Origin: Xenorhabdus ishibashii
GTDB taxonomy: Bacteria; Pseudomonadota; Gammaproteobacteria; Enterobacterales; Enterobacteriaceae
DNA: 15,500 nt
NCBI RefSeq assembly: GCF_002632755.1
Contig: NZ_NJAK01000002.1
Span: forward strand, 1 to 15,500
Reading direction: 5' to 3'
In this document: positions 1-15,500 of the stretch, one piece after another
Layout of the letters: every line of letters starts with the position of its first letter
Position numbering within the stretch: position 1 is the first letter of the stretch
The notes under the pieces: generated by a model
Databases searched by the model: none
The model's input: the letters and a program-made list of their open reading frames with translations, nothing else
What the model was told of the DNA's origin: nothing
Position numbers and translations under genes: made by a program

Positions 1-639
1 CCATCCCCAATTCAAGGGCAGAGTAAACCGCGTTATCGGGGTGCAAATGATACTCATCGACAATAGCAAGGCTGGGGTTAGTACCCTCAATCGTGGCGGC
101 TTTGGCTGCCAACGGTTTTAACAGGCTGTTGCTCTTGGTATAAGTCACTTTGTGTTGCTGGATAGATACCCGCTTCTTGAGTGGTTTTGAAAGCAGGCAC
201 ATCTGGCGGGCATCATCAAACACAATACGCGCCTGATCCCGACTCACGGCGGCGGTGTAAATATCCTGCTGCCCGTTCTCCATCACCAGAAACCAGTTAG
301 CCAGTATCGCGGCTACCGTGGATTTGGCATTTTTGCGCGGCACCTGAATATAAGCACTGCGTATTTCCGGCGACCGGTGGCCTTAACCTTGAAGCCGAAC
401 AGATTCGCAAAGGCGAACTGTTGCCACGGTTCAAGCATAATCGGCTTACCGCGCAAGTGGCCTTTGACGTGCGGGCAGAGACGGGAAAAGCCCACAAAAC
501 GTTCTACAACTTCGGTATCGAACATATAAAGCGGGTTATTCAGGTCGTTAAAGTAGCGTTTCACGGCCTGTTTTACCCGTTTACAGGCCGGAATATTGCC
601 GTTTTTGATATCAAAAGCGTACTGTTCCCATGCGTTCAT
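1..639 (-). CDS. terL: Terminase large subunit, 5' part (continues at 15500; frameshift near 360)
   Basis: ATPase half of the packaging motor, which pumps element DNA through the portal into the procapsid. ATG at 639 gives MNAWEQYAFDIKNG and follows the terS stop by 11 bases. The frame is open to about 361, then continues in another frame: one base is missing at the ctgc/gtattt step (360-361). With it restored, a deviant Walker A (VPRKNAKST, about residues 100-108) and a Walker B (LAIVDEYH, about 190-197) appear, typical of HK97-family TerL. The gene runs off base 1 and resumes in frame at 15500: ...ELGMG joins ARPEGILFAITTAG. Total 1661 bases, so one added base gives exactly 554 codons (553 aa), normal for the family. 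Family assignment is firm; whether the frameshift is biological is unknown. Confidence 0.9.
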
Positions 640-650
640 CGGGGTATCAC

Positions 651-1009
651 TCAGGCCATCAGCACATCTAAATCGTCGGGTTCATCGCTTTCTACCGGAT
701 TTCGGCGGCGGGAAACCGGATCAAAGCCCAGCAATGACGACATTTTTATCATGATTTTTTCCGCATCGGCTTTCGCTTTCAGTGAGGGGTTACTGGTCGC
801 TGCACCGCGTGAACCTTCCACTGCGAACCCGCGCACTTCAATGTCTTCAACGGCTTTACGGTAAATCGCATAGTTAACGCAATAGAGTTCTAAGTTGTTC
901 CAGTCTGCTGGGCTGAGATCTTCCCGTTCGTTGAGGATTTTGGCTTTTGATTTCCATTGCTCGGCGGCAATCTCATTTAAATAAACGGGGGTTTGGGTGC
1001 TCTTGCCAT
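651..1009 (-). CDS. terS: Terminase small subunit, with single-base frameshift near 987-991
   Basis: DNA-recognition subunit of the packaging terminase, directly upstream of terL. ATG at 1009 (MARAPKPP) has AGGA about 9 bases upstream. The original frame hits TAA after ten codons, but adding one C in the C5 run (G5 on the plus strand, 987-991) restores VYLNEIAAEQWKSKAKILNE and the frame then stays open to the TGA at 651-653. The repaired gene is 120 codons (119 aa), normal for a small terminase. The corrected protein is mostly helical with an acidic tail (ESDEPDDLDVLMA), as expected for a TerS oligomer that contacts TerL. The N-terminal PPVYL-type start resembles P27-family small terminases. 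Product named from position, size and helical character, so confidence is below that for TerL. Confidence 0.75.
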
Positions 1010-1137
1010 AATCTATTGTTTCCTATGAAGTTACTGCTATTGAAAAAAGTGCCGTGCATAAAAATTCGAGGGGCGGGTGGTGCCATGAGGCAGGGCGTTT
1101 GTCATTTTTGACACCCCACCCCCTTCTGAGTGCTTCT
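1010..1137. other. Putative cos / packaging recognition region
   Basis: A 128-bp gap between the small ORF after the HNH gene and terS, in an otherwise tightly packed operon. It holds a G-rich block (1068-1082) and a near-inverted C-rich block (CACCCCACCCCC, 1112-1123), with a short dyad TGTCA-tttt-TGACA (1100-1113) beside the second. In HK97-type phages with an HNH gene next to the terminase genes, the cohesive-end site usually lies just upstream of terS and is GC-rich. The cut position cannot be seen here; this is inferred from position and composition. Confidence 0.4.
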
Positions 1138-1305
1138 CTAGCGATTTCGGAAGCATTCCATTAGCTCCCTATCACGCTGTGTCTTGCGCCTCGCTGTGGG
1201 TTTCTCAGGCGCAATCTGATTTTGTTGTCGGTAAGGTTCACTGTGCTTGAGTAACCCTTTAAGGAGTTGATCCACTTCATCTTCACGCATCTTGGTTATA
1301 CTCAT
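1138..1305 (-). CDS. Small basic protein of unknown function between HNH and terS
   Basis: 55 codons starting MSITKMREDEVDQLLKG, ending RDRELMECFRNR. It overlaps the 3' end of the HNH gene, as is common in this compact operon; a second ATG at 1290 would give MREDEVDQ. The N-terminal half is acidic and probably helical, the C-terminal half rich in Arg/Lys (KPTARRKTQRDREL), which could suit nucleic-acid binding. No clear Shine-Dalgarno sequence precedes either start, so translation would depend on coupling to the HNH gene. I do not recognise the family. Its place between HNH and terS suggests a packaging accessory role, but that is inference only. Confidence 0.5.
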   Translation of the reverse strand: MSITKMREDEVDQLLKGLLKHSEPYRQQNQIAPEKPTARRKTQRDRELMECFRNR

Positions 1306-1729
1306 GAATCCAGTTATTGCGCTGGGCTGCCTTTGCTTCCAGTTCCCGATATTCCCCATTCTTACGCCGCTGTTTCGTTGTTGGGTCAGTGGTCACGGTC
1401 TTTCGACTGTGGCAGCTATTACATAGCGGCTGGTGATTGAAGTCAGGCCAAAACAGCACATCACTACCACCGTCAATGGGTATGATATGATCCACAATCG
1501 TCGCTGGGGCATACACACCTACCTTGAAACAATGCACACACAGCGGATTGGACTTAAGGAATTGCAGACGGTATTTATCCCATGCAGGGGTATAACCTCG
1601 CTCACGCCTTGAGCCTCGTTTACTGTCCTGTTGTCGTCTAGCTTCCCGTTTGTGCTGCTCACAGCGACCAGACTTGACCCGCTCACGGCAATTGGGATAG
1701 CTACAGCGCTTTAACGGTTGCCACGGCAT
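1283..1729 (-). CDS. HNH endonuclease of the packaging module
   Basis: HNH-family nuclease of 148 aa. The core is DHIIPIDGG (D80-H81) followed by FNHQPLCNSCHSRK (N98, H99, C103, C106, H107), with a CVHC pair at 64-67. Two Cys pairs around CxxCxxH form the zinc-binding treble-clef framework. A basic N-terminus (C9, C14, C23, H26) may add a second zinc site. In HK97-type cos phages, HNH proteins encoded next to the terminase genes act with TerL in cleaving cos DNA during packaging, which fits its place here. The ATG at 1729 shares one base with the TGA of the connector gene, so the two are translationally coupled. Confidence 0.9.
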   Translation of the reverse strand: MPWQPLKRCSYPNCRERVKSGRCEQHKREARRQQDSKRGSRRERGYTPAWDKYRLQFLKSNPLCVHCFKVGVYAPATIVDHIIPIDGGSDVLFWPDFNHQPLCNSCHSRKTVTTDPTTKQRRKNGEYRELEAKAAQRNNWIHEYNQDA

Positions 1730-2031
1730 CAGTAGACTCCTACATCACGATAGACAGACCATAATGATTTGATGGTGAACGGGATTTCTTTCAGTTCCTT
1801 ATCTGCCACCATCGAACGAGTTTCATACAGTAAACCGATATAAAGTAAACAGCCAACTTTGATCGCCGGACTGAATACCAAGCCATCATCAAAGCGCTTG
1901 CCGATATGTTGCTGGCAGACTTCTAAGGCAGCATTGGCATAACCTTGAAGTAAGGTATCTTCTAACGTATCACTTTCATCTATCCGGCAATGTTGTTTGA
2001 TTTCGTCCAATGTTATGAGAGGGTTACTCAT
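1729..2031 (-). CDS. Head-tail connector (HK97 gp6-like adaptor)
   Basis: 100-aa protein starting MSNPLITLDEIKQHCRIDESDTLEDTLL; this L-x-E-x-K-x-H-x-R-I-D opening followed by helices is typical of gp6-like DNA-packaging/connector proteins. It forms the ring under the portal to which later connector proteins and the tail attach. It starts 8 bases inside the end of the portal gene and ends overlapping the HNH start. This is the last head-assembly component before the packaging genes; no tail-terminator, tail-tube or fibre gene follows, so the connector would be the interface for a tail supplied in trans by a helper phage (inference). Confidence 0.85.
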   Translation of the reverse strand: MSNPLITLDEIKQHCRIDESDTLEDTLLQGYANAALEVCQQHIGKRFDDGLVFSPAIKVGCLLYIGLLYETRSMVADKELKEIPFTIKSLWSVYRDVGVY

Positions 2032-3241
2032 CTTTCACCTCTGTTTTTTTAATACTGACCTCTTGCTTCCATGCCTGGCTAAACTCATCGCCACCATCAC
2101 GGGGGGATAATCCCTCGCGTTCACGGGCTTCATTCGGGCACATCACACCGGATTTAATCGCCGTCTCGTAGCTCTGAAAGCGTTCTTTCGGATTGGCTCG
2201 CAGTAGATCGGCTGTGTCAAATTCAACTTGGTAGCGAATGCCTCGTTTTGGTGAGTTCATCAGCAAGGCGGACTTGATTTGCTGCTCAAAGTTAGCCAGC
2301 CACGGGCGCATGGTGATCGTCAGAAAAGCGCGTGATGCTTCGCTAAAATTACTGTAGGTACTGTTCGAATACTCTTGCAGGAAGATCGGGCTGACATTGA
2401 ACATACGGGCAATATCTTCAATCGTGAAGCGACGAGAGGCCAGCCATTCCGCATCTTGGTTGCTCATGCCTAACTGTTGGTATTCCATCCCCCCCTCAAG
2501 AATGGGCGTTTTCCCTGCATTGCGAGCGCCCTTATAACGTTCGAGGGCTTCCAGTGCCTTATTGCCCTTGATGCCATCCAGCCAGTCAGCGGCTTTAATC
2601 ACGCCCGCTGCCATCATGCCCTCTTTCATTATGCTGGCACCGTGGCGCTGTTGTGCCAGCCCCAAACCCAGTGTTTCACGGCAGATGGTGACTGGCGAAC
2701 GCCCCAAAAAGCCATCTTCGGTGGCATAACGCAAATGCAATACTTCTTCTTGTAGGTAGGTTTTGACCTTGCCGCTATAAGGTTCGGTAATGGTGTAAGC
2801 AAAGCGGTGATCCGATAATCGTTGCGGCACAACCGCTGACGGTGGGTAAGGGTGCAACGATTGTGGCTGTCCGTCTTTTCCCCAGACTATGACTGCATAC
2901 GCATTACCATTGAGTAAGCAATGACGCATCAGGGTTCGCTTAAACTGAAAAGGCGTCTGGCAGTCATTCGGGTATTCATTGAGCAAATAATCCACGGGGT
3001 GATCACTGAGCCATTCGCGGGACTCCTTGCCGTTCTGGTGCTGAACCCGATAGAGATAGCAAGGCATGGTCGCCACGGCTTCACTAATCACCGTGACAGC
3101 ATTCATCACGGCGGGTAAGCCTTCGGCTGTAGACGGTGAAACATGCTCGCCTGATTTGGTGTTAGATATACCTGCCAGAGAAAGAAACTCATCAATACTG
3201 ACACTGCGAGTCTCAGCGGCTTTACGCTTAAAAGGCCACAT
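2024..3241 (-). CDS. Phage portal protein, HK97 family
   Basis: 405-aa portal, the dodecameric ring at one capsid vertex through which TerL pumps DNA. It starts MWPFKRKAAETRSVSI and contains the portal-fold signatures GLPAVMNAVTVISEAVATMPCYLYR, LLNGNAYAVIV and the late FTIEDIARMFNVSPIFL segment seen in HK97-type portals. Length is close to the roughly 400-430 residues of the family. GAGG lies about 8 bases before ATG 3241, two bases after the protease stop. The C-terminus, DGGDEFSQAWKQEVSIKKTEVKDE, is charged, as usual. It lies in the order capsid, protease, portal, connector, the reverse of many phage operons but consistent within this element. Confidence 0.93.
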   Translation of the reverse strand: MWPFKRKAAETRSVSIDEFLSLAGISNTKSGEHVSPSTAEGLPAVMNAVTVISEAVATMPCYLYRVQHQNGKESREWLSDHPVDYLLNEYPNDCQTPFQFKRTLMRHCLLNGNAYAVIVWGKDGQPQSLHPYPPSAVVPQRLSDHRFAYTITEPYSGKVKTYLQEEVLHLRYATEDGFLGRSPVTICRETLGLGLAQQRHGASIMKEGMMAAGVIKAADWLDGIKGNKALEALERYKGARNAGKTPILEGGMEYQQLGMSNQDAEWLASRRFTIEDIARMFNVSPIFLQEYSNSTYSNFSEASRAFLTITMRPWLANFEQQIKSALLMNSPKRGIRYQVEFDTADLLRANPKERFQSYETAIKSGVMCPNEAREREGLSPRDGGDEFSQAWKQEVSIKKTEVKDE

Positions 3242-3243
3242 AG

Positions 3244-3792
3244 TTACACCTCGGACAGTTGCAGCCAGTAATGACGCAAATCAACATTGTTAGGCTTAAC
3301 CCTATTCAGCGAACGCTTGGCAATCTCAACACCGCTTTCAGGGTAGGCGGGTAAACTGGTGACAGTGATTTCCCGTAGTTCCGCTTCTAAAACGGTTCTC
3401 AGATAAGGCTCCTGACCCACATCCCACTGATCTTTGATAGCTCGAAAGCCAAAAGACATACCGGAAATATCACCCCGTTCAACTAGTGCCAGTACATCAC
3501 GCCCTAATTGGGTATCAGGCGGGGTTAACTCAAAGCGTAATCCGGTGGCATCTTCGGCAAGCTGCAATGTACCAGACGTAGTACGGCCTAACAGGTTCAT
3601 GTGATCATGTTCATAAAGCGCCCTGACATCTGTACCCGCCGTTAAGCTGGTGCTAAACGCATTCGGGGCGAACTGCTCGACAAACTCATCCCACAAAACT
3701 TGTGATCGGCTGTTCCACTTAATGACATAACCGGTCAGTTTCTTATCACTGGCAGACAGGGAAGCGGTGCGGATTTCAAAATCATTTTTCAT
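3244..3792 (-). CDS. HK97-type prohead maturation protease
   Basis: 182-aa serine protease of the herpesvirus-like prohead protease family (clan with HK97 gp4). Diagnostic features: ALYEHDHMNLLGRTTSG with the catalytic His (H62 or H64) and ERGDISGMSFGFRA with the nucleophile Ser in MSFGF (about residue 113), followed by a conserved acidic ELREITVTSLPAYP block. It cleaves the N-terminal scaffold domain of the capsid protein after procapsid assembly and is then degraded. The ATG at 3792 is preceded by GGAG at a normal distance. It lies between the capsid and portal genes and is transcribed with them. Confidence 0.93.
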   Translation of the reverse strand: MKNDFEIRTASLSASDKKLTGYVIKWNSRSQVLWDEFVEQFAPNAFSTSLTAGTDVRALYEHDHMNLLGRTTSGTLQLAEDATGLRFELTPPDTQLGRDVLALVERGDISGMSFGFRAIKDQWDVGQEPYLRTVLEAELREITVTSLPAYPESGVEIAKRSLNRVKPNNVDLRHYWLQLSEV

Positions 3793-3811
3793 TGGTAGAC
3801 TCCAGACTACA

Positions 3812-3830
3812 AAGGGGCGCAGTGCCCCTT
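3812..3830 (-). terminator. Capsid-protease intergenic hairpin (possible attenuator)
   Basis: A perfect 7-bp stem (AAGGGGC ... GCCCCTT) with a 5-base loop fills most of the 42-bp gap between the capsid stop and the protease start. On the transcript it is followed by only TTTG, a weak U tail. It may be a partial terminator or an mRNA-stabilising stem that keeps capsid above protease and portal levels; hundreds of capsid subunits are needed per particle. Structure seen directly; function inferred. Confidence 0.5.
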
Positions 3831-3834
3831 ATCG

Positions 3835-4989
3835 TTAACCCGCTTTCGTGCCTTTGATTTCGAGCACTTTGATTGCGTTGGAATCCACCAGACCACCACC
3901 CAAATATTTATCCGTGTGTACCTTGTAGTACCCCGGTTCGGTGATATTGTCAGGACGGGTGCGTGTGCCGGTATCATGGTCAACGATGAAGTAACCGCGT
4001 TTGAAGTCACCCAGACCGATAGCATCATCCGGCATAAATTCGAGATAATGGACAGGCAAGCCCAGTAACATATCAGGATCACCTGCTTGCAGACGTTCGC
4101 GCCAGATGTAATCACCGTTGCCGTTTTTCAGCTTCTGCACTTTGGCAGCCGTCGTGGAGTTCATCACCCACACCGCATTTTTACGGTATTTGTTCCTGAG
4201 CAGGAATTTCAGGTCAATCAGGCTATCGGCTTCCAGTTTGGCAACTTCCAGCTTTTGCAACGTACCGAACGCACGGGCTTTATCGGCTTGGGTATCACGA
4301 GGATAAGACAGGAAGCCTTTCGCTTTCTTGCTGCCGTCACCACTCACAAGATCGGTTTCTTCGGTATCAACAAACGTATCTGCAATTTCTGAGGTTAACC
4401 AGCCTAAAATATCGACATCGCTAAAATCGATGATTTCTTGGGTAGTCTTAGGGTAGGCATAAATCGGAAACAGCTTGATGCTGACTTCTTCCATCGTCGG
4501 TGTGGCTGTCTCACTGCGTGCCTTGCCTTCTTCCCCGTGGGCGACGGCTGCACCCCCGACCGAAACAAGCTGTTTATACTCATTACTACGCGTGGTCTTA
4601 ATCGTACAAATCCGGCGCATAACCGACTCATCAGCCAGTTGCTGCATGATCTGTTTATTCAGCTCAGGGATAACGGTATAGCCACCTTCGGAGGGTACGC
4701 TCGTAGACAAGGTGCGGGTTTCTCCGGTCACGATATAGTGACGCAGTTCATCATTGCTGAGTGTTTTACTGGCGGGCTGGTTCTTGGCCTGATTTCGCTC
4801 TTCATCCGATAAAGCCTCATAACGGGCGATTTCTGCATTCAGGGCACCGGACTGACTGCGCAGCTCGTCAAACTGTTTAGCTTCATCGGCATTAAGAGAG
4901 CGCTTTTCGTCTTCGGCTTTGGTGAGAAGAGAACGCATCTGCTGGGTTAAATCGGCTTTTTGCTGGCGTAATTCGAGTAATTTCTTCAT
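3835..4989 (-). CDS. Major capsid protein, HK97 family with scaffold (delta) domain
   Basis: 384-aa major capsid protein. Residues 1 to about 75 form a charged, coiled-coil-like region (MKKLLELRQQKADLTQQ...) matching the HK97 delta domain, which scaffolds procapsid assembly and is removed by the protease. The mature part begins around GGYTVIPE (residues 102-109), the conserved HK97-fold entry, and continues with typical N-arm, E-loop and P-domain sequence. First gene of the late operon, after a 229-bp non-coding stretch and the early terminator. AGAGG precedes the ATG at 4989. An intact capsid gene on an element without tail genes is the main reason to call it a capsid-forming satellite. Confidence 0.93.
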   Translation of the reverse strand: MKKLLELRQQKADLTQQMRSLLTKAEDEKRSLNADEAKQFDELRSQSGALNAEIARYEALSDEERNQAKNQPASKTLSNDELRHYIVTGETRTLSTSVPSEGGYTVIPELNKQIMQQLADESVMRRICTIKTTRSNEYKQLVSVGGAAVAHGEEGKARSETATPTMEEVSIKLFPIYAYPKTTQEIIDFSDVDILGWLTSEIADTFVDTEETDLVSGDGSKKAKGFLSYPRDTQADKARAFGTLQKLEVAKLEADSLIDLKFLLRNKYRKNAVWVMNSTTAAKVQKLKNGNGDYIWRERLQAGDPDMLLGLPVHYLEFMPDDAIGLGDFKRGYFIVDHDTGTRTRPDNITEPGYYKVHTDKYLGGGLVDSNAIKVLEIKGTKAG

Positions 4990-5140
4990 GGTGCCTCTGC
5001 ATGTAGGTTAAGGGTTCGCTGTCATGCAGGTTTGAGGAAGCGGTAGCGGGTTAGCACTACCGCCTTTGAGGACTTGCTACAGAGCAATTGAAGTCAGGAC
5101 GTGCCTACATGGTTCAGCAATCACTATTTAACACCATGAA
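4990..5140 (-). promoter_or_regulatory. Late-operon leader and probable promoter region
   Basis: The gap between the early terminator and the capsid gene must hold the late promoter if the terminator is efficient. It contains a hairpin with a 7-bp stem (GCGGTAG ... CTACCGC, near 5040-5065) in the 5' leader of the capsid mRNA. I could not pick a convincing -35/-10 pair; TTAAAT on the minus strand near 5125-5130 is a weak -10 candidate. A promoter needing an activator such as AlpA would fit, but no activator site is identifiable. Confidence 0.35.
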
Positions 5141-5173
5141 AAATAATAAAAAAGACCTCGTGATAGGAGGTCT
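5141..5173 (-). terminator. Rho-independent terminator ending the early/replication operon
   Basis: On the minus strand, AGACCTC and its complement GAGGTCT (plus-strand arms 5153-5159 and 5167-5173) form a 7-bp stem with a 7-base loop, followed by TTTTT-ATT-ATTTTT. This is a textbook intrinsic terminator. It sits 46 bases past the stop of the last small early gene and before the capsid gene, separating the replication and head modules. Confidence 0.85.
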
Positions 5174-5218
5174 AAACAAGGGGAAACATGAGGACGGGAT
5201 ATTTACAAATCTTTACTT

Positions 5219-5479
5219 TTATTTTTCACTCATCCAATCCGGCGCGTCGTTCATGATTTCTCTGAACGCCTGTAATTGTTCTATCAATACATCTAACTGC
5301 TCTTTATTGGTTGCCAGTATTTCCTCAGAAAATGTGTGGCGCAGACTACCACCTGAATCCTGAAAGAAAAAAGCATGACCATTGACCAACTGGCGGTACT
5401 CGCTTGTATGTAAATCGTCTAACTGCGTAATACCGTAATAATCGTAGTGTTCTCTGATATCTTCTTGCGTAATCGGCAT
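5219..5479 (-). CDS. Small unknown protein downstream of the origin
   Basis: 86-aa protein, MPITQEDIREHYDYYGITQLDD..., acidic and probably mostly helical in its second half (SEEILATNKEQLDVLIEQLQAFREIMNDAP). No membrane segment, signal peptide or zinc motif. AAGGGG lies about 8 bases before the ATG. It is the last gene before the early terminator and follows the other small unknown gene by 18 bases, so they are probably co-transcribed. I do not recognise the family. Satellites often place small proteins that redirect or block the helper here, but nothing in the sequence proves such a role. Confidence 0.7.
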   Translation of the reverse strand: MPITQEDIREHYDYYGITQLDDLHTSEYRQLVNGHAFFFQDSGGSLRHTFSEEILATNKEQLDVLIEQLQAFREIMNDAPDWMSEK

Positions 5480-5497
5480 AATATTCCCCTTATATAA

Positions 5498-5731
5498 TTA
5501 TTCTACTTCTCTGAATAGGGTTACTTGGAAAGTTTCTAAGGCTTCAGCTATCCCACGAATGTTCATCGCTAATTCATCCCGTGCCGCTGTCTTCATGAAT
5601 GCGGCTATAAGCTCTGGGTGCTGTTTGGCATACCCCTCACCGAACAAAGCATCTATTTCTTTGACTGCTCTTTCCATCCAGTACGCGGCTGAATTAGCTG
5701 CCTGTCTTTCAATCGTTGTTGCATCTAACAT
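5498..5731 (-). CDS. Small helical unknown protein
   Basis: 77-aa protein starting MLDATTIERQAANSAAYWMERAVKEIDALFGEGYAKQHPELIAAF. The start at 5731 is chosen because GGAGA sits just upstream; a longer frame to 5818 enters the iteron array and has no ribosome site. The sequence is helix-rich with alternating hydrophobic positions and no recognisable catalytic motif. First gene after the origin in the direction of transcription, with a stop 18 bases before the next small gene. Function not recognised. Confidence 0.65.
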   Translation of the reverse strand: MLDATTIERQAANSAAYWMERAVKEIDALFGEGYAKQHPELIAAFMKTAARDELAMNIRGIAEALETFQVTLFREVE

Positions 5732-5767
5732 ATGTTCTCCATTTTTGTATATATATAGTGAAAAGTT

Positions 5768-5792
5768 ACCGACAACACCGACAAACCGACAA
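5768..5792 (+). repeat. Left three-iteron array, inverted copy of 6118-6142
   Basis: Three CCGACAA units starting at 5769, 5778 and 5786. The 25-bp block is the exact reverse complement of 6118-6142 and marks the left edge of the putative origin. Confidence 0.9.
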
Positions 5793-6117
5793 TGAGGTAA
5801 AATACAATTTAATATCAATTAGATACACTGTTAAATCGTTGTCGGTTAATTGTCGCTCAATTTTTTGATATCGCTAGAATTACAATATTATTGTTATCTT
5901 TCATGTAGATAAACATCACTTCCTGTTGTCGAAAACCGACAACGCTACTTATAAACTCTTTCATATTTATCCGAATCCTTTTGCCTACCAAAAAAAGAAA
6001 GTTTTTCTTCTGGCAGGTGCTTTGTTTTAAGTCCGCCAATGAAAACGACAAATCGACAACGTACCGACAAACATTTAACATTTTAGTATATTGATTTATA
6101 AGATATTTATATTACTG

Positions 6118-6142
6118 TTGTCGGTTTGTCGGTGTTGTCGGT
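6118..6142 (-). repeat. Right three-iteron array, inverted copy of 5768-5792
   Basis: Three TTGTCGG units starting at 6118, 6126 and 6135, ending 22 bases before the primase stop codon. Exact reverse complement of the left array. Confidence 0.9.
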
Positions 6143-6164
6143 CAGTTTTACGCGTATAGAGAAT

Positions 6165-9175: not shown

Positions 9176-9177
9176 GA

Positions 9178-9348
9178 TCATGCTCTCCCTGCGTAGGTGT
9201 ATTCTTTAGTGAATCGGCTTAATGGCATGGTGCACGGGGTGTGATAACCATCACGGACAAAGGTCACGCGATTAAAGGCGACTGACAGCACTTGTACGGC
9301 TTCCCCGTTCTTATGGGTGTAATAGTCATGGGGGGCTGGGTTACGCAT
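9178..9348 (-). CDS. DUF4222-like small protein
   Basis: 56-aa protein, MRNPAPHDYYTHKNGEAVQV..., with a core RVTFVRDGYHTPCTMPLSRF. The pattern RVTF-RDGY-xxPC-xP-xxRF resembles DUF4222 proteins found in enterobacterial prophages and P4-like elements; function unknown in the family. It starts 8 bases inside the end of the icd-like gene and its stop overlaps the next gene, so it is translated as part of the operon. Assignment rests on recalled family pattern. Confidence 0.65.
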   Translation of the reverse strand: MRNPAPHDYYTHKNGEAVQVLSVAFNRVTFVRDGYHTPCTMPLSRFTKEYTYAGRA

Positions 9349-9589
9349 GATTCACCCCCTGAACGGTAGACATATCGCTACAGTTGAAAGGAGTATCGAT
9401 ACCGATATCCCATGCTTGACGGGAAACGAATATCAGCGAGGACATGCCAGCCAGTAGACGGGCTTCAACTTCACTATCCGCCAGCACAGTGATAAGGCGC
9501 GCCGGATGAATATCCACCAATCGCTGAGTGCCTGATGCAATTAGGAATGTAAATTTAAGGCGAGTTTGGTTATGCTGTGGGGTATCCAT
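9341..9589 (-). CDS. Icd-like host cell-division inhibitor
   Basis: 82-aa protein, MDTPQHNQTRLKFTFLIASG..., with the segment ITVLADSEVEARLLAGMSSLIFVSR and the ending QGVNHA. The pattern KFxFL ... A(D/T)SExEARxLL ... VNHA is that of the Icd/Ash C-terminal family, named from P1 icd, which inhibits host cell division when antisense control is lost. AAAGGAG lies nine bases before ATG 9589. First gene of the icd-DUF4222-small-primase operon; a C4-like RNA lies upstream, the same association as in the P1 immI locus. The frame remains open upstream as far as 10519, but the good ribosome site argues for this start. Confidence 0.7.
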   Translation of the reverse strand: MDTPQHNQTRLKFTFLIASGTQRLVDIHPARLITVLADSEVEARLLAGMSSLIFVSRQAWDIGIDTPFNCSDMSTVQGVNHA

Positions 9590-9723
9590 AGCGTAAGACT
9601 CCTTTACGTTTTTGGTTAGACGCCTCGATAGTGTTGTAGCACTTCGGGGCGTTGTTGTTTTTGGTCTACACTTGTCATACACTTGATGTATAAGTCCAAT
9701 ATAAACAGGAGTAAACCAAGTGT
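9590..9723. promoter_or_regulatory. Divergent control region with ACACTTG operator-like repeats
   Basis: Region between icd (minus) and the RHH gene (plus). ACACTTG occurs at 9668-9674 and 9679-9685, one helical turn (11 bp) apart, and inverted (CAAGTGT) at 9717-9723 over the RHH start codon. For the leftward operon, TTTACT-17-TATACA on the minus strand is a possible promoter whose -10 abuts these repeats. The layout fits operators for the RHH protein acting on both genes; binding is inferred. Confidence 0.5.
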
Positions 9724-9893
9724 CAACCATTAAAATATCAGGAAAGGGAAATAAGCAAATCGCGTTAAGAGTAGAACCATCCCTTGAGCAAGGAATAAAA
9801 GCAGCGTTAGCCCAAGATGGTGACGCTTCTGTATCTGCATGGATAAAGAGAATTATCCGTAAAGAGTTGCAATCTCGCGGCATTGAACAATAA
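9720..9893 (+). CDS. Ribbon-helix-helix (Arc/CopG-like) DNA-binding regulator
   Basis: 57-aa protein and the only convincing plus-strand gene in the window: GTG start at 9720 with AGGAG about 8 bases upstream, stop TAA at 9891. The sequence reads VSTIKISGKGNKQIALRVEP, then EQGIKAALAQDGDASVSAWI and a KRIIRKELQSRGIEQ tail: a beta strand (KQIALRVEP), two helices and a basic C-terminal helix, the layout of Arc/MetJ/CopG repressors that insert a paired beta ribbon into DNA. It is transcribed away from the icd-primase operon across a short control region with ACACTTG repeats, and is therefore a good candidate for the repressor or switch protein of the replication module. It had not been visible as an ordinary ORF because of its short length and GTG start. 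Confidence 0.75.
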   Translation: MSTIKISGKGNKQIALRVEPSLEQGIKAALAQDGDASVSAWIKRIIRKELQSRGIEQ

Positions 9894-9920
9894 CTAACCG
9901 ACCGACAATAAGTCCGGTGG

Positions 9921-9987
9921 TTAACCGAATGAATATCTTTCACTTGGTTGACTGACTCGAAATAATCATAGTAGTTAACCAATTGAT
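9921..9987 (-). promoter_or_regulatory. Candidate antisense target sites of C4-like RNA 1
   Basis: On the minus-strand transcript, ATCAATTGGTTAA (9975-9987) is complementary to TTAACCCATTGAT of the C4-like RNA with one mismatch in 13. A second, weaker match (GATATTCATTCGGTTAA, 9921-9937) lies 38 bases downstream. Paired target sites for one RNA are reminiscent of P4 seqA/seqC. Pairing computed by eye; no thermodynamics. Confidence 0.45.
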
Positions 9988-10107
9988 TTATCTCATGACG
10001 CAAAGACGCGTGATCCCAAAGGGTAGCATTCGCCGTGCTATCCTTTTCTTTTTGCACTCCACTAAATGATGACTGCAAAGTTTGCGCGTCGCTAAATGAT
10101 ACGCGCA

Positions 10108-10182
10108 TATTATGACCAGACTGCATATTTGCAGTGCGATTAGATATCAATGGGTTAAGCAGCCACCCCGAAATAATCGGGG
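10108..10182 (-). ncRNA. C4-like antisense RNA, copy 1
   Basis: On the minus strand: hairpin CCCCG ... CGGGG (10166-10182), the 20-base element whose plus strand is GATTAGATATCAATGGGTTA (10138-10157), hairpin ACTGCA-aata-TGCAGT (10120-10135), then TCTGGTCATA (10111-10120). Copy 2 at 14325-14403 has the same single-stranded blocks exactly but different stems that still pair, the mark of a conserved RNA. C4 RNA of phage P1 regulates icd and ant by antisense pairing, and icd lies downstream here. RNA class recalled from P1/P4 immunity systems, not from a covariance-model search. Confidence 0.6.
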
Positions 10183-10508
10183 AGCCTCCCAAACTACGAC
10201 CAAACGCCAATCTGACGGTCAGCGGGGAAATCAATGAGTTACTGAGGTGTCCGAAAATATTCGCATACCCATCAGCGAAATATTTCTCCGATTGGAACTG
10301 AGCGAAAAGTTTCTCTGAGTGACCAGCCAAAGTGAGGACTACGGTATTCTTCGAGGTCACTGAGTTAATGACCTCGGTAACGGGACTCCTTAAACTAAAG
10401 GAATTCCTATAGTTAATTTTTCCCCGACTTGAGGTTAATTGTTCAATATTTGGTCTTTGATTCCCCCGTTTCGGGGGAACAGAGAGTGCTTTATGACCGC
10501 TCATCAAA

Positions 10509-11198
10509 TTAGCCTCCAATGCGCCCTGTAGGGTTCATTAGTGTTGCGAACAGCTCAATACGGCGGCTTACTTCCCTCAGTGCTTGTGTTGGTGATTGCC
10601 CTGCATTCCTTGCATCTTGAAAAGCAGCCTGTTCAATCTTCTGAATACAGACAAGTAATCCTAACTGTTGCTCATCTGCGTTCTGGCGTTCACCATCCAG
10701 TAAACCCGCAAAGCGATTCTCAGTACGAGCAAGGTTGATGTAATGGTGACGTTCTGCGCCCAGATCACGTAAAGCATCACGGGATTCATGATAGTTAGGC
10801 AGATATTCACGACGTATAGGTTCAGCAGCTCGCTTCTTAGCAAAGGCTTTTGTTACATCCAGCTTAAACTGAACCATCAGATCATGATCACGCCCTCTAA
10901 TAAGTCGGCACATAAAGTCGAACTGGTCTTCATTGAGCAAGGCGTATTTATGCTTACGTTCACCAAGTTGCTCAGTATTTAATCGCTCCGTTTGAAACGG
11001 AAGGATTCCAAACTGCCTTAAATTCTTAGTGTTCTTCCTAATTAATTCATAAAGGCTCTTATGCTGAATTCCGATGCGCTTAGCAAACAGGCGTGAATCA
11101 ATTCTCGATTCAGTTCTATGCTGAACCAAAATAAGCTCTTGGCTGTTTTCAGTGTGAGCAAGTCCCTGACCATTTAAGGCCATATTTTTAGATGTCAT
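10509..11198 (-). CDS. rha: Rha-family phage regulatory protein
   Basis: 229-aa protein. The N-terminal part (about 20-115) carries the Rha signature: ESRIDSRLFAKRIGIQHKSL, then LRQFGILPFQT, KYALLNEDQFDFMCRLIRGR and LMVQFKLDVTKAFAKKRA. The C-terminal part (LGAERHHYINLARTENRFAGLL...QQLGLLVCIQKIEQAAF) is helical and family-variable. Rha proteins occur in lambdoid phages, and pRha homologues are regulators in Gram-negative PICIs. Between alpA-2 (18 bp) and the C4-containing leader, so it is the last gene of the regulatory block. GACAG lies upstream of the ATG at 11198, a moderate ribosome site. Regulatory target unknown. Confidence 0.85.
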   Translation of the reverse strand: MTSKNMALNGQGLAHTENSQELILVQHRTESRIDSRLFAKRIGIQHKSLYELIRKNTKNLRQFGILPFQTERLNTEQLGERKHKYALLNEDQFDFMCRLIRGRDHDLMVQFKLDVTKAFAKKRAAEPIRREYLPNYHESRDALRDLGAERHHYINLARTENRFAGLLDGERQNADEQQLGLLVCIQKIEQAAFQDARNAGQSPTQALREVSRRIELFATLMNPTGRIGG

Positions 11199-11216
11199 AT
11201 TTCTACCCTGTCTTAA

Positions 11217-11498
11217 TTAATTTGATTTTCGGCTATAGGGGTTATTTACGTTCTCTACTGTTGGAGGATTACGTACCCACCACAAAACATCACTTAATAA
11301 CCATGAGACGGAATTACGCCCCAATGGAACGCGTTTAGGAAATTTACCTTCTTCCTCTAATACCCAACGACGAGAACGCGATAAACTGGAAAGATGCTCA
11401 CATTCTTTTTCCCTGATTCGACGATCATATTTCTCGCCATACTCATTTAAAATTGATTGTCGTTCTTGTGGTGTCGGTGATGTAAACTTCATTGCCAT
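11217..11498 (-). CDS. AlpA-family transcriptional regulator, second copy
   Basis: 93-aa protein with the short winged-helix AlpA pattern: ECEHLSSLSRSRRWVLEEEGKFPKRVPLGRNSVSWLLSDVLWWV. The order (recognition helix SRSRRW, FPKRVPLG turn, then W-x-x-x-D-V-x-x-W) is typical of AlpA/Cox-like DNA-binding proteins that activate satellite genes and excision. It differs from copy 1 and has its own upstream gap with a terminator, so it may be separately promoted. Start at 11498 (MAMKFTS); an internal ATG two codons later is also possible. Directly followed by rha. Confidence 0.8.
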   Translation of the reverse strand: MAMKFTSPTPQERQSILNEYGEKYDRRIREKECEHLSSLSRSRRWVLEEEGKFPKRVPLGRNSVSWLLSDVLWWVRNPPTVENVNNPYSRKSN

Positions 11499-11517
11499 AT
11501 TTTTATATTCTCCAAAA

Positions 11518-11540
11518 ACAAAAACCCCGCGAGCGAGGTT
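11518..11540 (-). terminator. Intrinsic terminator between the two alpA genes
   Basis: Minus strand: AACCTCG-ctcg-CGGGGTT stem (one G-U pair) followed by TTTGTTTTT. The G-U pair works only for minus-strand RNA; the plus strand would have a C-A mismatch there. It separates the int-alpA-1 transcript from alpA-2 and rha, implying a promoter or regulated read-through for the latter. Confidence 0.75.
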
Positions 11541-11566
11541 ATTATTAATTTAAATGATGTTTAATT

Positions 11567-11791
11567 TTATTCTGGCTTCCAAGTGCCTTTTATCCATGCC
11601 TGAATTTCAGACAATCGATAAACTTTAGTTTGTGGACCTATCGTTATTTTTAAAGGAAACTTGCCATTTTTTTCAAGATATGACCTGTGTCTTCTTCCTA
11701 ATGAGGTTAACCATTCACACTCTTCTTCTCTAATTAGTCTATCAAGTTCATCTGAATATTCTAATTCTTCACGAGTGAATATATGTATCAT
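11567..11791 (-). CDS. alpA: AlpA-family transcriptional regulator, first copy
   Basis: 74-aa AlpA-type protein: IREEECEWLTSLGRRHRSYL, EKNGKFPLKITIGPQTKVYR, LSEIQAWIKGTW. Matches copy 2 in the same positions (EECEWLTSLGRRHR against KECEHLSSLSRSRR; GKFP shared; W in the last helix), so they are paralogues. A strong GAGGAGG ribosome site lies in the 3' end of int, and the start overlaps int by 23 bases, so translation is coupled. In Gram-negative PICIs, AlpA is the conserved activator next to the integrase. Confidence 0.85.
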   Translation of the reverse strand: MIHIFTREELEYSDELDRLIREEECEWLTSLGRRHRSYLEKNGKFPLKITIGPQTKVYRLSEIQAWIKGTWKPE

Positions 11792-12995
11792 TTTCTATTT
11801 CCTCCTCAATTAAAGAGTCTAAATAATTCACCCACCAGTAGAGTGCATTTCTTTTTTGTTCAATATATTGACTTCGATTATATATTCCAGAGACTCCATT
11901 GAGTGAATGGCCTAATAGTTGTTCAACCACGTTATGTTCAAATCCGTTATCACTGAGTATGGTAGCAAACACTCTTCGTATATCGTGCGCTGTCCACTTT
12001 TCTTTGTGGTTTAATCTTTTCCATATTTTCGCAATAGTCACACTTGCCGTACATTGTTTGACATCAAAGCCAATGACATATTCTCTCTTTTTTGTTGATT
12101 GGTTCAATAACAACAACCAGTTTTTAAAATTACTGGGGATCGGTCTGATTATTTCCCTGCCATTTTTACTGTGCTCTGGCGGCACTCTCCATATATTGTT
12201 TGAAAAATCCCATTCATCCCATTTCGATAGACGTATTTCGGAAAGCCTACACCCAAAAACGATTAAAAACCGAAGAATAATTCTGTTTTCGTGAGACATA
12301 ATGTGGTTATCATATTCTTTATTTATATAGAGCCATACATCACGTAATTCATCATTAGTTAACACTCTGTCTCTTCTATTAGCTTTTTCACCCACATCAC
12401 CAACATCCAAATCATCTATCTCATGGCTAATTGCATATTTTCTTACTCGGCAAAATTTCAATGCCTGTTGTGAGATTTTCAAAAGAGATCCCGCTTGCAC
12501 TGGTGCATTCTCTTTAATTTTATCAAAGCATCTAATCCACATTGATAATGTGCATTCATTTAATGGAATATTTCCAATCTCTGAGTAAATATGTTTAGAA
12601 AAACAACCTCTAATATAGATTGCTGCTTTTCGTTTATTGGTGGCATAATTATTGAGCCAATATTCTATGGCATCTTTCACGGTGACAGGTTTTAACGTAT
12701 CTTCTTTTATTATTTTTATTTGTATTCGTGGATCTTTCCCTTTAGCTAACCATGCCCTGCATTTATCTCTTTGCTCTCTTGCAACTTTAAGGCTTAAATC
12801 GGGGTATTTACCCAATGTTAACCATATCGGCGCACTTTCACGCCCATACAGGCGGTAGAAGAAAACAAAGCTGATTGTCCCTTGTTTACTTAATCTGATT
12901 GATAACCCGTTCCCGTCCGCTATCGTCTGCTGTTTTTCAACAGGTTTACCGTACAAGGATTTGAGCTTTTTATCACTGAGCTTGTTTACAGCCAT
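11769..12995 (-). CDS. int: P4-type tyrosine integrase
   Basis: 408-aa site-specific recombinase that integrates and excises the element. N-terminal arm-binding domain (about 1-95; LTLGKYPDLSLKVAREQRD), core-binding domain (about 100-190) and catalytic domain with R250 (FGCRLSEIRLSKWDEWD), Lys in HSKNGR (K277), H337 and R340 (HDIRR), H363 (LGHS) and nucleophile Y372 (GIYNRSQY). All expected residues are present and the gene is intact. AAAGG precedes ATG 12995. Sequence type is that of enterobacterial P4-like/PICI integrases. The upstream 12996-13290 region carries paired arm sites, as expected when attP adjoins int. Confidence 0.95.
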   Translation of the reverse strand: MAVNKLSDKKLKSLYGKPVEKQQTIADGNGLSIRLSKQGTISFVFFYRLYGRESAPIWLTLGKYPDLSLKVAREQRDKCRAWLAKGKDPRIQIKIIKEDTLKPVTVKDAIEYWLNNYATNKRKAAIYIRGCFSKHIYSEIGNIPLNECTLSMWIRCFDKIKENAPVQAGSLLKISQQALKFCRVRKYAISHEIDDLDVGDVGEKANRRDRVLTNDELRDVWLYINKEYDNHIMSHENRIILRFLIVFGCRLSEIRLSKWDEWDFSNNIWRVPPEHSKNGREIIRPIPSNFKNWLLLLNQSTKKREYVIGFDVKQCTASVTIAKIWKRLNHKEKWTAHDIRRVFATILSDNGFEHNVVEQLLGHSLNGVSGIYNRSQYIEQKRNALYWWVNYLDSLIEEEIENDTYIHS

Positions 12996-13013
12996 CTACT
13001 AAACCTTTTCATT

Positions 13014-13037
13014 TTGCAATACACATTGCAATACGCA
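13014..13037 (+). repeat. Integrase arm-type site pair, left
   Basis: TTGCAATACACA followed directly by TTGCAATACGCA. Matched by a second pair at 13247-13270 with three differences in 24 bases. Confidence 0.7.
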
Positions 13038-13246
13038 GAGAGGTGCAACAATCCACAAACACCAAAACGAATGAAAACACAAAAAATGGATTTATTTTTG
13101 TTTTTCATGAAATTATAAACAACATGAGCACATGTAATCCCATGTCATTTACAAAGTTTATATGCTTGGTGAAGAAATTGCAAATTCTTATTATTTAATT
13201 GATTTATAACGATTTTAATTGTTTTTATTGGTATTTTATTTGCTGT

Positions 13247-13270
13247 CTGCAATGCACATTGCAATACACA
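13247..13270 (+). repeat. Integrase arm-type site pair, right
   Basis: CTGCAATGCACA followed directly by TTGCAATACACA; direct copy of 13014-13037. Confidence 0.7.
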
Positions 13271-13361
13271 GTAATTTTATGAAGGGATAGAGTGAAATGA
13301 GGTCAGTACGCTAAACGCACCAACCTTGTGAAGAGGTTGCGCCGAATTTCGTCGGAACCTA

Positions 13362-13643
13362 TTAAGTGATTGAGGAAGCAGTTAACTGATACCCCTGCCA
13401 GTAAGAAGCCTTTCCCGTCACTGTGATCACCTGGCCTTTCTGTAACAACATCACCGATAGTGCCATCTCATCAAAGCCCACGACACGCAGCGGGTAATCA
13501 CTGCGTTTCTCGCTCTGTGCTTGCATAGTAGCGACTGCCATCACCTTACCCGTCTGGCACTTGATACGCTTGGGGGGAACGGTAATCTTGCCTGTGATCG
13601 TAGCGACTATCGAGGGTGCATTCTTCTTCTGTCTTCGTGCCAT
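13362..13643 (-). CDS. Short OB-fold, SSB-like protein
   Basis: 93-aa protein, MARRQKKNAPSIVATITGKI..., with SIVATITGKITVPPKRI, VMAVATMQAQSE, YPLRVVGFDEMALSVMLLQKGQVITVTGKASYW and GYQLTASSI. The beta-strand order and the G-x-V/I-x-V-x-G turn are those of the OB fold in single-stranded DNA-binding proteins, though it is shorter than SSB and lacks the acidic tail. It may protect single strands during satellite replication. It lies between attP and the terL end, so in the integrated form it would be at the opposite end from int. GGCGGTGG precedes the start. Preceded by an unusually long structured non-coding region with a C4-like RNA. Confidence 0.6.
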   Translation of the reverse strand: MARRQKKNAPSIVATITGKITVPPKRIKCQTGKVMAVATMQAQSEKRSDYPLRVVGFDEMALSVMLLQKGQVITVTGKASYWQGYQLTASSIT

Positions 13644-13783
13644 GTTCCACCGCCTATAGATGGTTGGGATTTAAATCATGATAATAATCAATAACTTAAA
13701 TAACTGCGAACATAATACGTACTGGGTTACATTAAGTAACCTTGTGCTGGACGGCTTAAACTCAAACCCACCTGAGTTATTTA

Positions 13784-13797
13784 TAACTCATTGATAT
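13784..13797 (-). promoter_or_regulatory. Candidate antisense target of the C4-like RNAs
   Basis: Minus-strand ATATCAATGAGTTA pairs with TAACCCATTGATAT of the C4-like element with one mismatch in 14. It lies about 550 bases downstream of copy 2 on the same strand, at the end of the leader ORF. Confidence 0.5.
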
Positions 13798-13850
13798 TCT
13801 CGTTCATCCTCACTTTGAGGAGAAGTAGCAACCGTGGTGATCTTCACCAT
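13788..13850 (-). CDS. Possible 20-codon leader peptide
   Basis: AAGGAG, 10 bases, then ATG: MVKITTVATSPQSEDEREYQ and TGA. The stop codon overlaps the best complementary site for the C4-like RNA (13784-13797) and a TGAGTTAT/ATAACTCA hairpin. Short leader ORFs controlled by antisense RNA are known from P1/P4-type immunity. Evidence is the ribosome site and context only. Confidence 0.35.
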   Translation of the reverse strand: MVKITTVATSPQSEDEREYQ

Positions 13851-14179
13851 AGTTAGGTAACTCCTTGATTCTTCCGAGGGGGTCACTTTGACCACCCTAT
13901 CATGATTTCCGTAATGGTTAATTTATGTGCTGGACAACCGCAGTAAATTCACTGTATTTCAATGAATTACTTGGACATAACGTACTGGACAAAACAACTT
14001 AACCATCTGTTTTCGTATAACTCTTTTGTGCGCACCTCTTAATGAGTTGTACAAATTCTGTGAGTCAGCCAGACTGACGCTCAAATTGTGAGTAACTATC
14101 GGTTACGCTCAAGACCATTTGCGACTGACTAACTGTCAGTGACACCCAAAGTCCGATTATCGGATATTGGATTTTGCAT

Positions 14180-14194
14180 CGACGAATTTCGTCG
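14180..14194. repeat. Palindrome CGACGAATTTCGTCG, repeated at 13340-13354
   Basis: Seven-base arms around one central T; the copy at 13340-13354 has one arm change (CGCCGAA). Both are next to a second AGAGG-containing hairpin. Possibly a protein-binding dyad or paired RNA hairpins. Confidence 0.5.
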
Positions 14195-14324
14195 GGACAA
14201 ACTGAACCTCTTAAAGAGGGGCAGTTCAATCTATTGAGTGATCTATAACTAACACTCTTAAAGAGATGTAGTTCTTGTTTCTTGCCACGAGACAGGTAAC
14301 CCAAAATAATTGGGTCAGTTACAC

Positions 14325-14403
14325 TATGACCAGACGCCAAATATGGCGTCTGATTAGATATCAATGGGTTACGCTAATTGGGATTTTCAAGCCCATTTAA
14401 CCC
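14325..14403 (-). ncRNA. C4-like antisense RNA, copy 2
   Basis: Same layout as copy 1: an outer hairpin (GGGTTA ... TAACCC with inner TGGG/CCCA, 14366-14403), the identical 20-base block (plus strand GATTAGATATCAATGGGTTA, 14352-14371), hairpin AGACGCCA-aata-TGGCGTCT (14332-14351) and TCTGGTCATA (14325-14334). The inner stem sequence is wholly different from copy 1, yet fully paired. No icd gene follows; the downstream gene is SSB-like. Confidence 0.6.
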
Positions 14404-14437
14404 TTTGATTTCACTTAATTCTGTCACAAAACCAGAA

Positions 14438-14456
14438 TTCCCGCATCGTGCGGGAA
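14438..14456 (-). terminator. Hairpin after terL, probable late-operon terminator
   Basis: TTCCCGCA-cga-TGCGGGAA stem 22 bases past the terL stop on the minus strand, followed by TTCTGGTTTTG. Strong stem, interrupted U tail, so efficiency is uncertain. Confidence 0.55.
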
Positions 14457-14478
14457 ATAAGCAAAATCAACAAGTTAT

Positions 14479-15500
14479 CTAAATACCGTCAAAGTCAGCC
14501 AGCCGCTGCTTCTGCTCCTCATTGAGACTAAAAGCAAACTCTTCATGCTCTGCCTGCCATGTACCAAAACTCATCAGAAACGCAATTGCAGGGTCTATTT
14601 TATTCGCGGACTTCTTCTTGTTCGGCTTGATATTGGCGTTCGCGTCTGTCTCCATTACGACATTAGACATCGCCCATGCGAGAACCGGATCGCCATTGTG
14701 ACGAATGATTTTGCGGTTAACAAAGACTTCGGCGGATTTAGCTACGGGACTATACCGCATGTAGGTTTGCGGGAACGGCTCAACATCCAGCCCTGCACCC
14801 TGTAGTTGTGTGCGTAAGTGTGTGGCGTTCCATGTGTCAAAGCCCACCAGTTTGATATCAAAGTGCTGGCTATCCTTGAGAATGTCATCACGGATACGGT
14901 CATAATCAATACAATCGCCGGTCGTGGTACGTATCCAGCCCATTTGTGCCCATTGGCGATACACTGCCCGATTCTTATTAGCAGGGTTCTGTAGCTGGGC
15001 TTCCGGCAAGTAATGGCGGGTCAGTAATAACAGTTCGTTATCCACGGGGAACGTGTAACAGATACTGGTGATATCCCCCGTTGAAGATAAATCTAATCCA
15101 GCGTAGCATTCCAAGCCTTTGAGGTCGTTTTCGTCATAGTCTGACTGGCAGTCTTTCCATGCGCCTTCACCCATCCACGGCGTTTCACCCTGACACCAGA
15201 TATTAAAGCGTTTGGTGAGCATCTCAGTCCATTGCGAGGGAATGCCTCGTGCTTTCTGGATTGTGTCGTGCAAAGCATCACTGTCTACGGAAACATTCAG
15301 GTTAGGATTAGCCTTTATCCAGAGGGCTTCATCATCAATCTCGTTCTCGTCGTCCAGTTCGTAGATCAGGGCAAACAGGGATTCATTTTGTTCTTCACCC
15401 TCCAATATCTGACAGCAATAATCATAGTGCTGTTTACAGGCGGATATCACGTTACTGCCTGCCGTAGTAATGGCAAACAGAATGCCTTCGGGACGGGCGC
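14479..15500 (-). CDS. terL: Terminase large subunit, 3' part (joins base 1)
   Basis: C-terminal 340 residues of the packaging motor, entering from the window end. It begins (A)RPEGILFAITTAGSN, the coupling motif that follows the ATPase Walker B, and continues to the RNase-H-like nuclease: catalytic Asp candidates in AGLDLSSTGD (D350 in the whole protein), VGFDTWNAT (D435) and KIDPAIAF (D516). The nuclease cuts concatemeric DNA at cos. End TAA/stop at 14479, ...KQRLADFDGI. Read with 1-639 it forms one 553-aa protein after correcting a single missing base. This half has no frame break. Family certain from motifs and from the matching 5' half. Confidence 0.92.
   Translation of the reverse strand, partial: ARPEGILFAITTAGSNVISACKQHYDYCCQILEGEEQNESLFALIYELDDENEIDDEALWIKANPNLNVSVDSDALHDTIQKARGIPSQWTEMLTKRFNIWCQGETPWMGEGAWKDCQSDYDENDLKGLECYAGLDLSSTGDITSICYTFPVDNELLLLTRHYLPEAQLQNPANKNRAVYRQWAQMGWIRTTTGDCIDYDRIRDDILKDSQHFDIKLVGFDTWNATHLRTQLQGAGLDVEPFPQTYMRYSPVAKSAEVFVNRKIIRHNGDPVLAWAMSNVVMETDANANIKPNKKKSANKIDPAIAFLMSFGTWQAEHEEFAFSLNEEQKQRLADFDGI

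Follow-up and report, generated by a model that had tools for sequence, protein, structure and literature searches.

The window analysed here, the whole stretch of 15,500 nucleotides from Xenorhabdus ishibashii (contig C2, bases 1-15500, of genome G000, assembled to 3.86 Mb in five contigs; positions below are those of the window, 1..15500), held a phage satellite. Read from the attachment (att) site, its genes ran in the order integrase, two AlpA genes, Rha, a small ribbon-helix-helix (RHH)-type gene of opposite orientation, a gene for an Icd-like protein, small unassigned genes and a primase of 903 aa; next came inverted repeats, two small unassigned genes, capsid, prohead protease, portal, gp6-like connector and HNH, and the order ended with a small open reading frame (ORF), TerS, TerL and, adjoining att, the gene of a small conserved protein (Table 1). 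The core of a phage-inducible chromosomal island (PICI), namely integrase, AlpA and primase, was fully present by Pfam. The element also had its own capsid, protease, portal, connector, HNH, TerS and TerL, ordered as in known elements, and such a set is the hallmark of a capsid-forming PICI (cf-PICI). Pfam covered 18 element proteins and revealed no tail or lysis family among them; three further small ORFs were compared with NCBIfam, PHROGs and PADLOC only. A sequence-only reading of this stretch had listed int, AlpA, Rha, primase and an HK97 head and packaging set, and had proposed a head-only satellite of cf-PICI type with a size of about 15.5 kb and cf-PICI gene order. All of these genes were found by Pfam, with alpA present twice rather than once; one period measured 15.5 kb, the order was that of E. 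coli O157 and Morganella elements, and gene content, gene order and homology together supported the proposal.

Table 1. Features of the satellite in window coordinates, listed from the att side of the integrase
Feature	Position	Strand	Basis or remark
Small conserved protein adjoining att	13362..13643	-	OB-fold-like by eye
Doubled arm-type motif, far side	13248..13270	-	15/16 consensus; 80 nt from att centre
attP core, crossover region	13156..13180		Integrated copies break at 13180 (C1) and 13156 (C2)
Doubled arm-type motif, integrase side	13015..13037	-	15/16 consensus; 131 nt from att centre
Tyrosine integrase, 408 aa	11769..12995	-	Phage_integrase + Arm-DNA-bind_3
AlpA-family regulator 1	11567..11791	-	PF05930 (Phage_AlpA)
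AlpA-family regulator 2	11217..11498	-	PF05930 (Phage_AlpA)
Rha-like regulator, Bro zone	10509..11198	-	PF09669 (Phage_pRha); phrog_518, phrog_2657
Structured RNA repeat copy 1, Bro zone, possible immunity RNA	10111..10160	-	82% repeat of copy 2
Small RHH-type protein, YlcI/YnfO-like	9720..9893	+	Weak NCBIfam and PHROG matches
Icd-like protein, start approximate, frame clearest in C4	9341..9715	-	NCBIfam phage_ICD_like, below cut-off
Primase-helicase, 903 aa	6165..8876	-	Zn_Ribbon_Prim, Toprim_3, DUF927
Inverted repeats 3' of primase, candidate replication origin	5761..6149		32-nt arms, 94% complementary
Major capsid protein	3835..4989	-	PF05065 (Phage_capsid)
Prohead protease	3244..3792	-	PF04586 (Peptidase_S78)
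Portal protein	2024..3241	-	PF04860 (Phage_portal)
gp6-like head-tail connector	1729..2031	-	PF05135
HNH endonuclease	1283..1729	-	PF01844
Candidate cos/packaging region, small ORF to TerS	1010..1137	-	G-rich block
TerS, P27 type, start mapped from C4	651..1009	-	PF05119 (Terminase_4) on L006:15030-15389
TerL, first part, frame broken near 360 in window copy only	1..639	-	TerL_ATPase; 553-aa frame in C4
TerL, remainder, joins position 1 over the circle	14479..15500	-	Element TerL: TerL_ATPase + TerL_nuclease (Pfam)
Structured RNA repeat copy 2, after TerL	14325..14374	-	Fold z-score -4.6 vs shuffles

The window was exactly one period of a 15.5-kb circle, since TerL left at position 1 and resumed at 15500. 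Contig C4 (15,501 bp) was the same circle opened at 1121, C2:15601-31099 was another one-period copy opened at 9579, and contig C5 (14,361 bp) was a shorter copy; two 100-N gaps on C2 separated successive copies. Three one-period copies with different openings and one partial copy were thus recorded (L006, L010, L011; C4, C2). Because one-base indels were the only differences between copies, save for two positions near the att end, the broken frames of TerL and TerS in the window, which were open in C4 (553 and 119 aa), look like products of sequencing errors. Four attP junctions, one attL and one attR were assembled, and no assembled copy of an empty attB was found in this genome. The three one-period copies and the partial one suggest that the culture that was sequenced held this element in abundance, as circles or as tandem repeats. 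An integrated tandem array, in which the element may be locked in place, predicts the same junctions, and a Morganella record described below likewise contained a second, partial copy placed head to tail. However, exact one-period pieces with three openings (C2:1-15500, C2:15601-31099 and C4) are what circular molecules give, and we consider the array doubtful as the source of the extra copies.

The att core was located just upstream of the integrase, and both flanks encoded halves of a phage TerL. The N-terminal part (about 340 residues) was on C1 and the remainder, read as a 241-aa frame, on C2; Pfam placed the break within the nuclease domain, at positions 64-67 of its profile, and int and the split terL shared the same orientation (minus strand of C1). 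A 25-nt core was common to attP and attL, while attR had two mismatches at one end. The surrounding genes were those of a siphoprophage, with Phage_tail_L, Phage_min_tail, tape measure, tail tip J, Rz and integrase. On its terL-N side were the Rz lysis gene, the integrase further out, an HNH gene 37% identical to that of the satellite and, by eye, TerS, endolysin-like and repressor-like genes. The terL-C side carried the prophage's own portal, capsid, tape measure, minor tail M and L and tail I and J, with protease and connectors recognized by eye. The prophage tail genes also included a putative outer-membrane beta-barrel gene (L021 11204-11746), Ail/Lom-like by eye. In the sequence-only reading, tail and lysis genes next to the stretch in its genome of origin would have marked it as a fragment of a full prophage. 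Tail and lysis genes did flank the element on both sides, inside the prophage, but they do not refute the satellite reading because the element had att sites and an integrase of its own and existed in one-period copies that lacked those genes. Moreover, the neighbouring phage carried a separate capsid, portal and TerL, 31-35% identical to the satellite versions (TerL 31-34%, capsid 33%, portal 35%), its terL was split exactly at the att core, and the same borders recurred in relatives from other genomes. The prophage-fragment explanation, in which the element would be the head and packaging part of a single phage, was rejected on the att borders and the whole one-period copies, and we give it almost no credence. 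The integrated form lay inside the prophage terL; a helper-embedded type of site and attP had not been considered in the sequence-only reading. A tRNA-type attachment site was rejected as well, since a scan of four flanking stretches revealed no tRNA. The satellite's own TerL differed from the att core at 12/25 bases, so self-integration into it is unlikely.

The same site was legible as an intact gene elsewhere. In eight other Xenorhabdus genomes, terL was unbroken at the site in nine loci, with the NFFTKH site legible in 8/9 and not located by the scan in the ninth; the G007 row also lacked its first 149 residues. Interruption at the site was found in G000, G002:C68 and G015, and early ends of another cause were found in G002:C28 and two G011 rows; partial integrase copies in G007 and G029:C65 were excluded from the site count. 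The surrounding siphoprophage is the probable helper of the element.

PICIs that insert in late genes of prophages are known as helper-embedded PICIs (HE-PICIs); the main text of their description (Tommasini, Mageeney and Williams 2023, PMC10111431) counts 491 such elements, whose integrases are related and which occupy 14 sites distributed over nine late genes of prophages, and it places a doubled motif in attP, 81 and 132 nt away from the centre of att. A doubled arm-type motif was present on both sides of the core in the window, and 0/50 mononucleotide shuffles scored above 14 of 16. Measured to the nearest edge in the identical way, the motifs of 11capE, an element of E. coli NRG 857C, were at 80.5 and 131.5 nt. 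The doubled motif preceded the 11capE integrase and every integrase of at least 75% identity with a readable start, and it reached at best 12/16 or less ahead of the other integrases compared. Taken together, the sequences make it likely that the element is a capsid-forming, helper-embedded PICI of Xenorhabdus, with an HE-PICI integration module and a cf-PICI head module.

Seven named relatives of the integrase were found in the genome collection, all of them in Xenorhabdus, and G015, of the genus of the window's genome, had the integrase locus of a named X. khoisanae sequence. The integrases of five close relatives were 75-90% identical to that of the window, the 11capE integrase was 52% identical, and those of further IMG/VR loci, mostly terL-embedded, were 69-71% identical. 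Among nine close loci (the window, L023-L029 and G021), terL was split or abutted by three (the window, L023 and L029) and tail gene T by G021 and L027, both with Phage_tail_T on the integrase side. L025 abutted a gene read as portal, L024 abutted an AraC-family gene, and L026 and L028 had no assigned site. The portal call in X. hominickii was made by inspecting 70 residues that follow a lambda-type TerL, with no Pfam match. The BG5 element (G022) lay beside an AraC-family gene, and its far end was not fixable by motif geometry. The X. hominickii-type loci L034 and L090 carried an 81% identical integrase and the same small att-side gene without the HK97 head module; a lambda-type late region lay at their int side, and one ORF of the element resembled a lambda-type small terminase by eye. 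Halves of terL also surrounded the satellite in G030, G032 and E. coli NRZ96606, the last an annotated composite displaying the entire arrangement, and in these relatives both halves were on single contigs or one chromosome. G032 contained two embedded satellites in one prophage, in terL and in the major tail gene (reverse strand, about 26739-42092 and 47730-62939). This pair fits the Arsenophonus HE-PICI pair reported in the published text at A:Terminase_1:245 and V:Phage_TTP_13:49 (PMC10111431), and G032 is probably Arsenophonus. In a plasmid search, its sister record L030 matched 34 records, all Arsenophonus, but the 20 matches listed covered only 6% of the query (lysis genes), at about 84-86% identity. 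The accessible text of another satellite paper mentions satellite-bearing helper prophages in Arsenophonus.

An IMG/VR scan with five aligned integrases yielded 79 loci. When the integrase abutted terL (n=16), a window-like capsid, protease and portal were present in 12/12 loci for which 10 kb or more could be read downstream; when it abutted the lambda-type capsid gene (capsid-E, n=41), the head module was present in 0/36 of such loci. Loci with less than 10 kb readable were left out of these counts (4/16 terL-abutting and 5/41 capsid-E-abutting; head module in 0/9), and L181 yielded no row. L034, on the portal side, was without such a head module, and L117, L156-L158 and L165 had the module and no readable late-gene flank. 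Ten IMG/VR records were queried with TerL, and 8/10 showed helper terL-N, satellite TerL and helper terL-C, the satellite TerL being 78-79% identical to that of the window; the remaining 2/10 were short, with one TerL piece each. Among complete E. coli genomes, 32/5426 had a terL/integrase junction, and in 28/32 a junction of satellite TerL with terL-C, compared by eye, lay 13.6-17 kb off on the same strand. The exceptions were CP128979, with a far junction at 59% coverage, CP122620 and CM135183, whose best places were far apart, and CP172152, which was absent among the 45 matches listed for the far junction. Among the 30 E. coli matches listed, 29 covered the terL part only (query 1-329 in 28 and 1-323 in one); ending at the att centre, they are as expected of uninterrupted genes. 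In this survey, terL embedding and the head module appear to go together.

Another explanation is an ordinary cf-PICI that landed off target in a prophage terL, with no functional meaning. One close relative did adjoin an AraC-family gene, and off-target HE-PICIs are reported in the published text (PMC10111431). However, the terL site recurred in Xenorhabdus, in an IMG/VR genome fitting Arsenophonus and in E. coli, and the doubled motif was ahead of 16/16 terL-abutting integrases; we regard a chance landing as improbable.

We put at about even the chance that capsid formation and terL embedding make up one strategy of a satellite subclade ranging from Xenorhabdus to E. coli, which brings its own heads and packaging motor and lodges in the motor gene of the helper, and in which the helper donates tails and lysis while its self-packaging is blocked until the satellite leaves. 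Upon helper induction, the prophage would drive late transcription through the satellite. Helper DNA packaging would be off while terL is split within the nuclease domain, and the tail and lysis genes would be left whole. Int and AlpA would then excise the satellite, which would replicate from its own origin; we infer from their position 3' of the primase that the inverted repeats serve as that origin. The satellite's own terminase would package it into its own heads, perhaps from the candidate cos/packaging region that position suggests upstream of TerS, whose G-rich block was conserved across 5/5 aligned elements. Tails and lysis would be taken from the embedding helper or another resident phage, and excision would rejoin the helper terL, so that the helper would be delayed and not destroyed. 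A satellite needing just tails and lysis could afford to shut off helper packaging, and the integration site would do that. Alternatively, the satellite TerL might substitute for the split helper TerL and leave the helper unblocked, following the proposal in the published HE-PICI text that captured late genes act as backups (PMC10111431). Such a backup role is unlikely here because the satellite and helper TerL are so different, and the capsid and portal pairs are about as distant; a separate TerS also lay ahead of each terL, that of the helper recognized by eye, and we assign this explanation little probability.

Several observations weigh against the composite and its proposed strategy. The head set had no head-closure gene, although the related E. 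coli O157 element has one. The attP junctions as assembled would arise from circles or from tandem copies, either way, the two being indistinguishable without reads. The grouping of the integrase with 11capE in the integrase tree had weak support (85/54) and carried a long-branch warning. The terL-abutting locus L114, with 9.2 kb readable, showed no head gene, and the head module was also present in elements off terL (G021, G022 and the Morganella element by fis). Kinship reduced the independence of the survey, as 4/12 loci came from one IMG genome and 8/28 E. coli genomes were one near-identical bovine series; the loci are related by descent, so the pattern is a subclade property and not many independent events. 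Finally, the HE-PICI authors, as stated in the published text, detected no particles of their own element (PMC10111431).

The sequence-only reading had further pointed to two C4-like RNAs and an RHH switch as features not known to be described for cf-PICIs. The two 50-nt repeats were genuine, with 82% identity, and formed minus-strand hairpins whose stems differed on both sides yet remained self-complementary; the fold z-score against shuffles was -1.3 for copy 1, so that a clear excess was seen for copy 2 only. However, no immunity or C4-type Rfam family matched in the window (gathering threshold or E up to 5), and a C4 assignment was rejected. In four reference loci, the sole Rfam match was the int-alpA RNA of the Morganella element (RF02996, L018 20540-20606, between integrase and alpA); none matched in the window. 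Similar boxes were found in four Xenorhabdus relatives with 1-4 mismatches/20 in a scan without chance control, including one in G021 with 3 mismatches/20 after the satellite TerL; 4-mismatch boxes elsewhere (L028, L030, L032, L068) look like chance. By analogy, the repeats may be immunity RNAs, which the published text reports in several HE-PICIs (PMC10111431). The RHH-type gene was confirmed on the opposite strand, but its YlcI/YnfO match was under the curated cut-off and its Arc-like family matches were also weak. Annotations of 11capE, of the E. coli O157 element and of the Morganella element likewise place a YlcI/YnfO gene next to the Icd-like gene and in opposite orientation, and E. coli NRZ96606 has a YlcI/YnfO-like gene. 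With immunity RNAs published and YlcI/YnfO common in related elements, neither the RNAs nor the RHH gene can clearly be called new. Among the other small genes, the Icd-like protein was 32-34% identical to E. coli elements at their Icd-like genes. The small att-side protein had no Pfam, NCBIfam, PHROG or PADLOC match and was 95% identical across 92 aa in G034, whose integrase side is that of X. hominickii. PADLOC, used as a check for accessory or defence genes on 10 satellite proteins, gave one marginal match.

Compared with known systems, the element shared with HE-PICIs the doubled motif and its spacing, same-orientation insertion in a late gene, the absence of replacement sequence and the four-zone order. 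The published text lists a site group A:Terminase_1:245/246 (PMC10111431). The split in the window, at nuclease-profile 64-67 after a 178-position ATPase profile, would correspond to about 245 in the older joint profile. terL targeting was dropped as a new feature, the site type being already published (PMC10111431). The integrase tree was also dropped as proof of an HE-PICI clade; motif and site weigh more than the tree for this assignment because of its weak support and long-branch warning. The published text neither calls HE-PICIs capsid-forming nor ties the terL site to a full head and packaging set, and the main text, supplement aside, nowhere uses the words Xenorhabdus, Morganellaceae, cf-PICI or terL (PMC10111431). 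A link between terL embedding and capsid formation was stated nowhere in the literature searched, as far as its accessible text goes, the main cf-PICI papers lying outside that search. 11capE shared the attP architecture, the 52% identical integrase and late-gene embedding; it sits in the capsid gene, however, and its annotated late genes are capsid and decoration protein, with no terminase, portal or protease.

The head module had its counterparts among cf-PICIs, for which the accessible text of one paper gives an average of 14 kb and names Morganellaceae among the carriers (PMC10803314). The E. coli O157 cf-PICI by roxA (NZ_CP038425) had the same gene order, with TerL 77%, portal 77%, capsid 67% and TerS 63% identical. 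By contrast, it had a chromosomal site, a 42% identical integrase, no doubled attP motif and the additional head-closure gene; this element is presumably EcCIEDL933. Of the named elements compared, the Morganella morganii element by fis (NZ_CP070523) had the head module most like that of the window, with TerL 87%, portal 86%, capsid 81% and TerS 76% identical and likewise without head closure, whereas its fis site, 49% identical integrase and lack of a doubled motif set it apart. Its record (NZ_CP070523.1; L018, 24,703 bp), filed as a plasmid, consisted of the chromosomal fis region, the cf-PICI and a partial second copy placed head to tail, with DUF3892, TerL and TerS repeated; it is probably a misassembled tandem or circle junction. 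Satellites with a flank may thus be filed as plasmids, and composites of satellite and helper as one prophage. The arrangement in X. ishibashii joins in one element two satellite types described apart, offers a natural pair of satellite and probable helper known from sequence, and gives a clear prediction on who would be packaged when. Helper embedding and capsid formation have each been published separately, and it is their combination that appears here.

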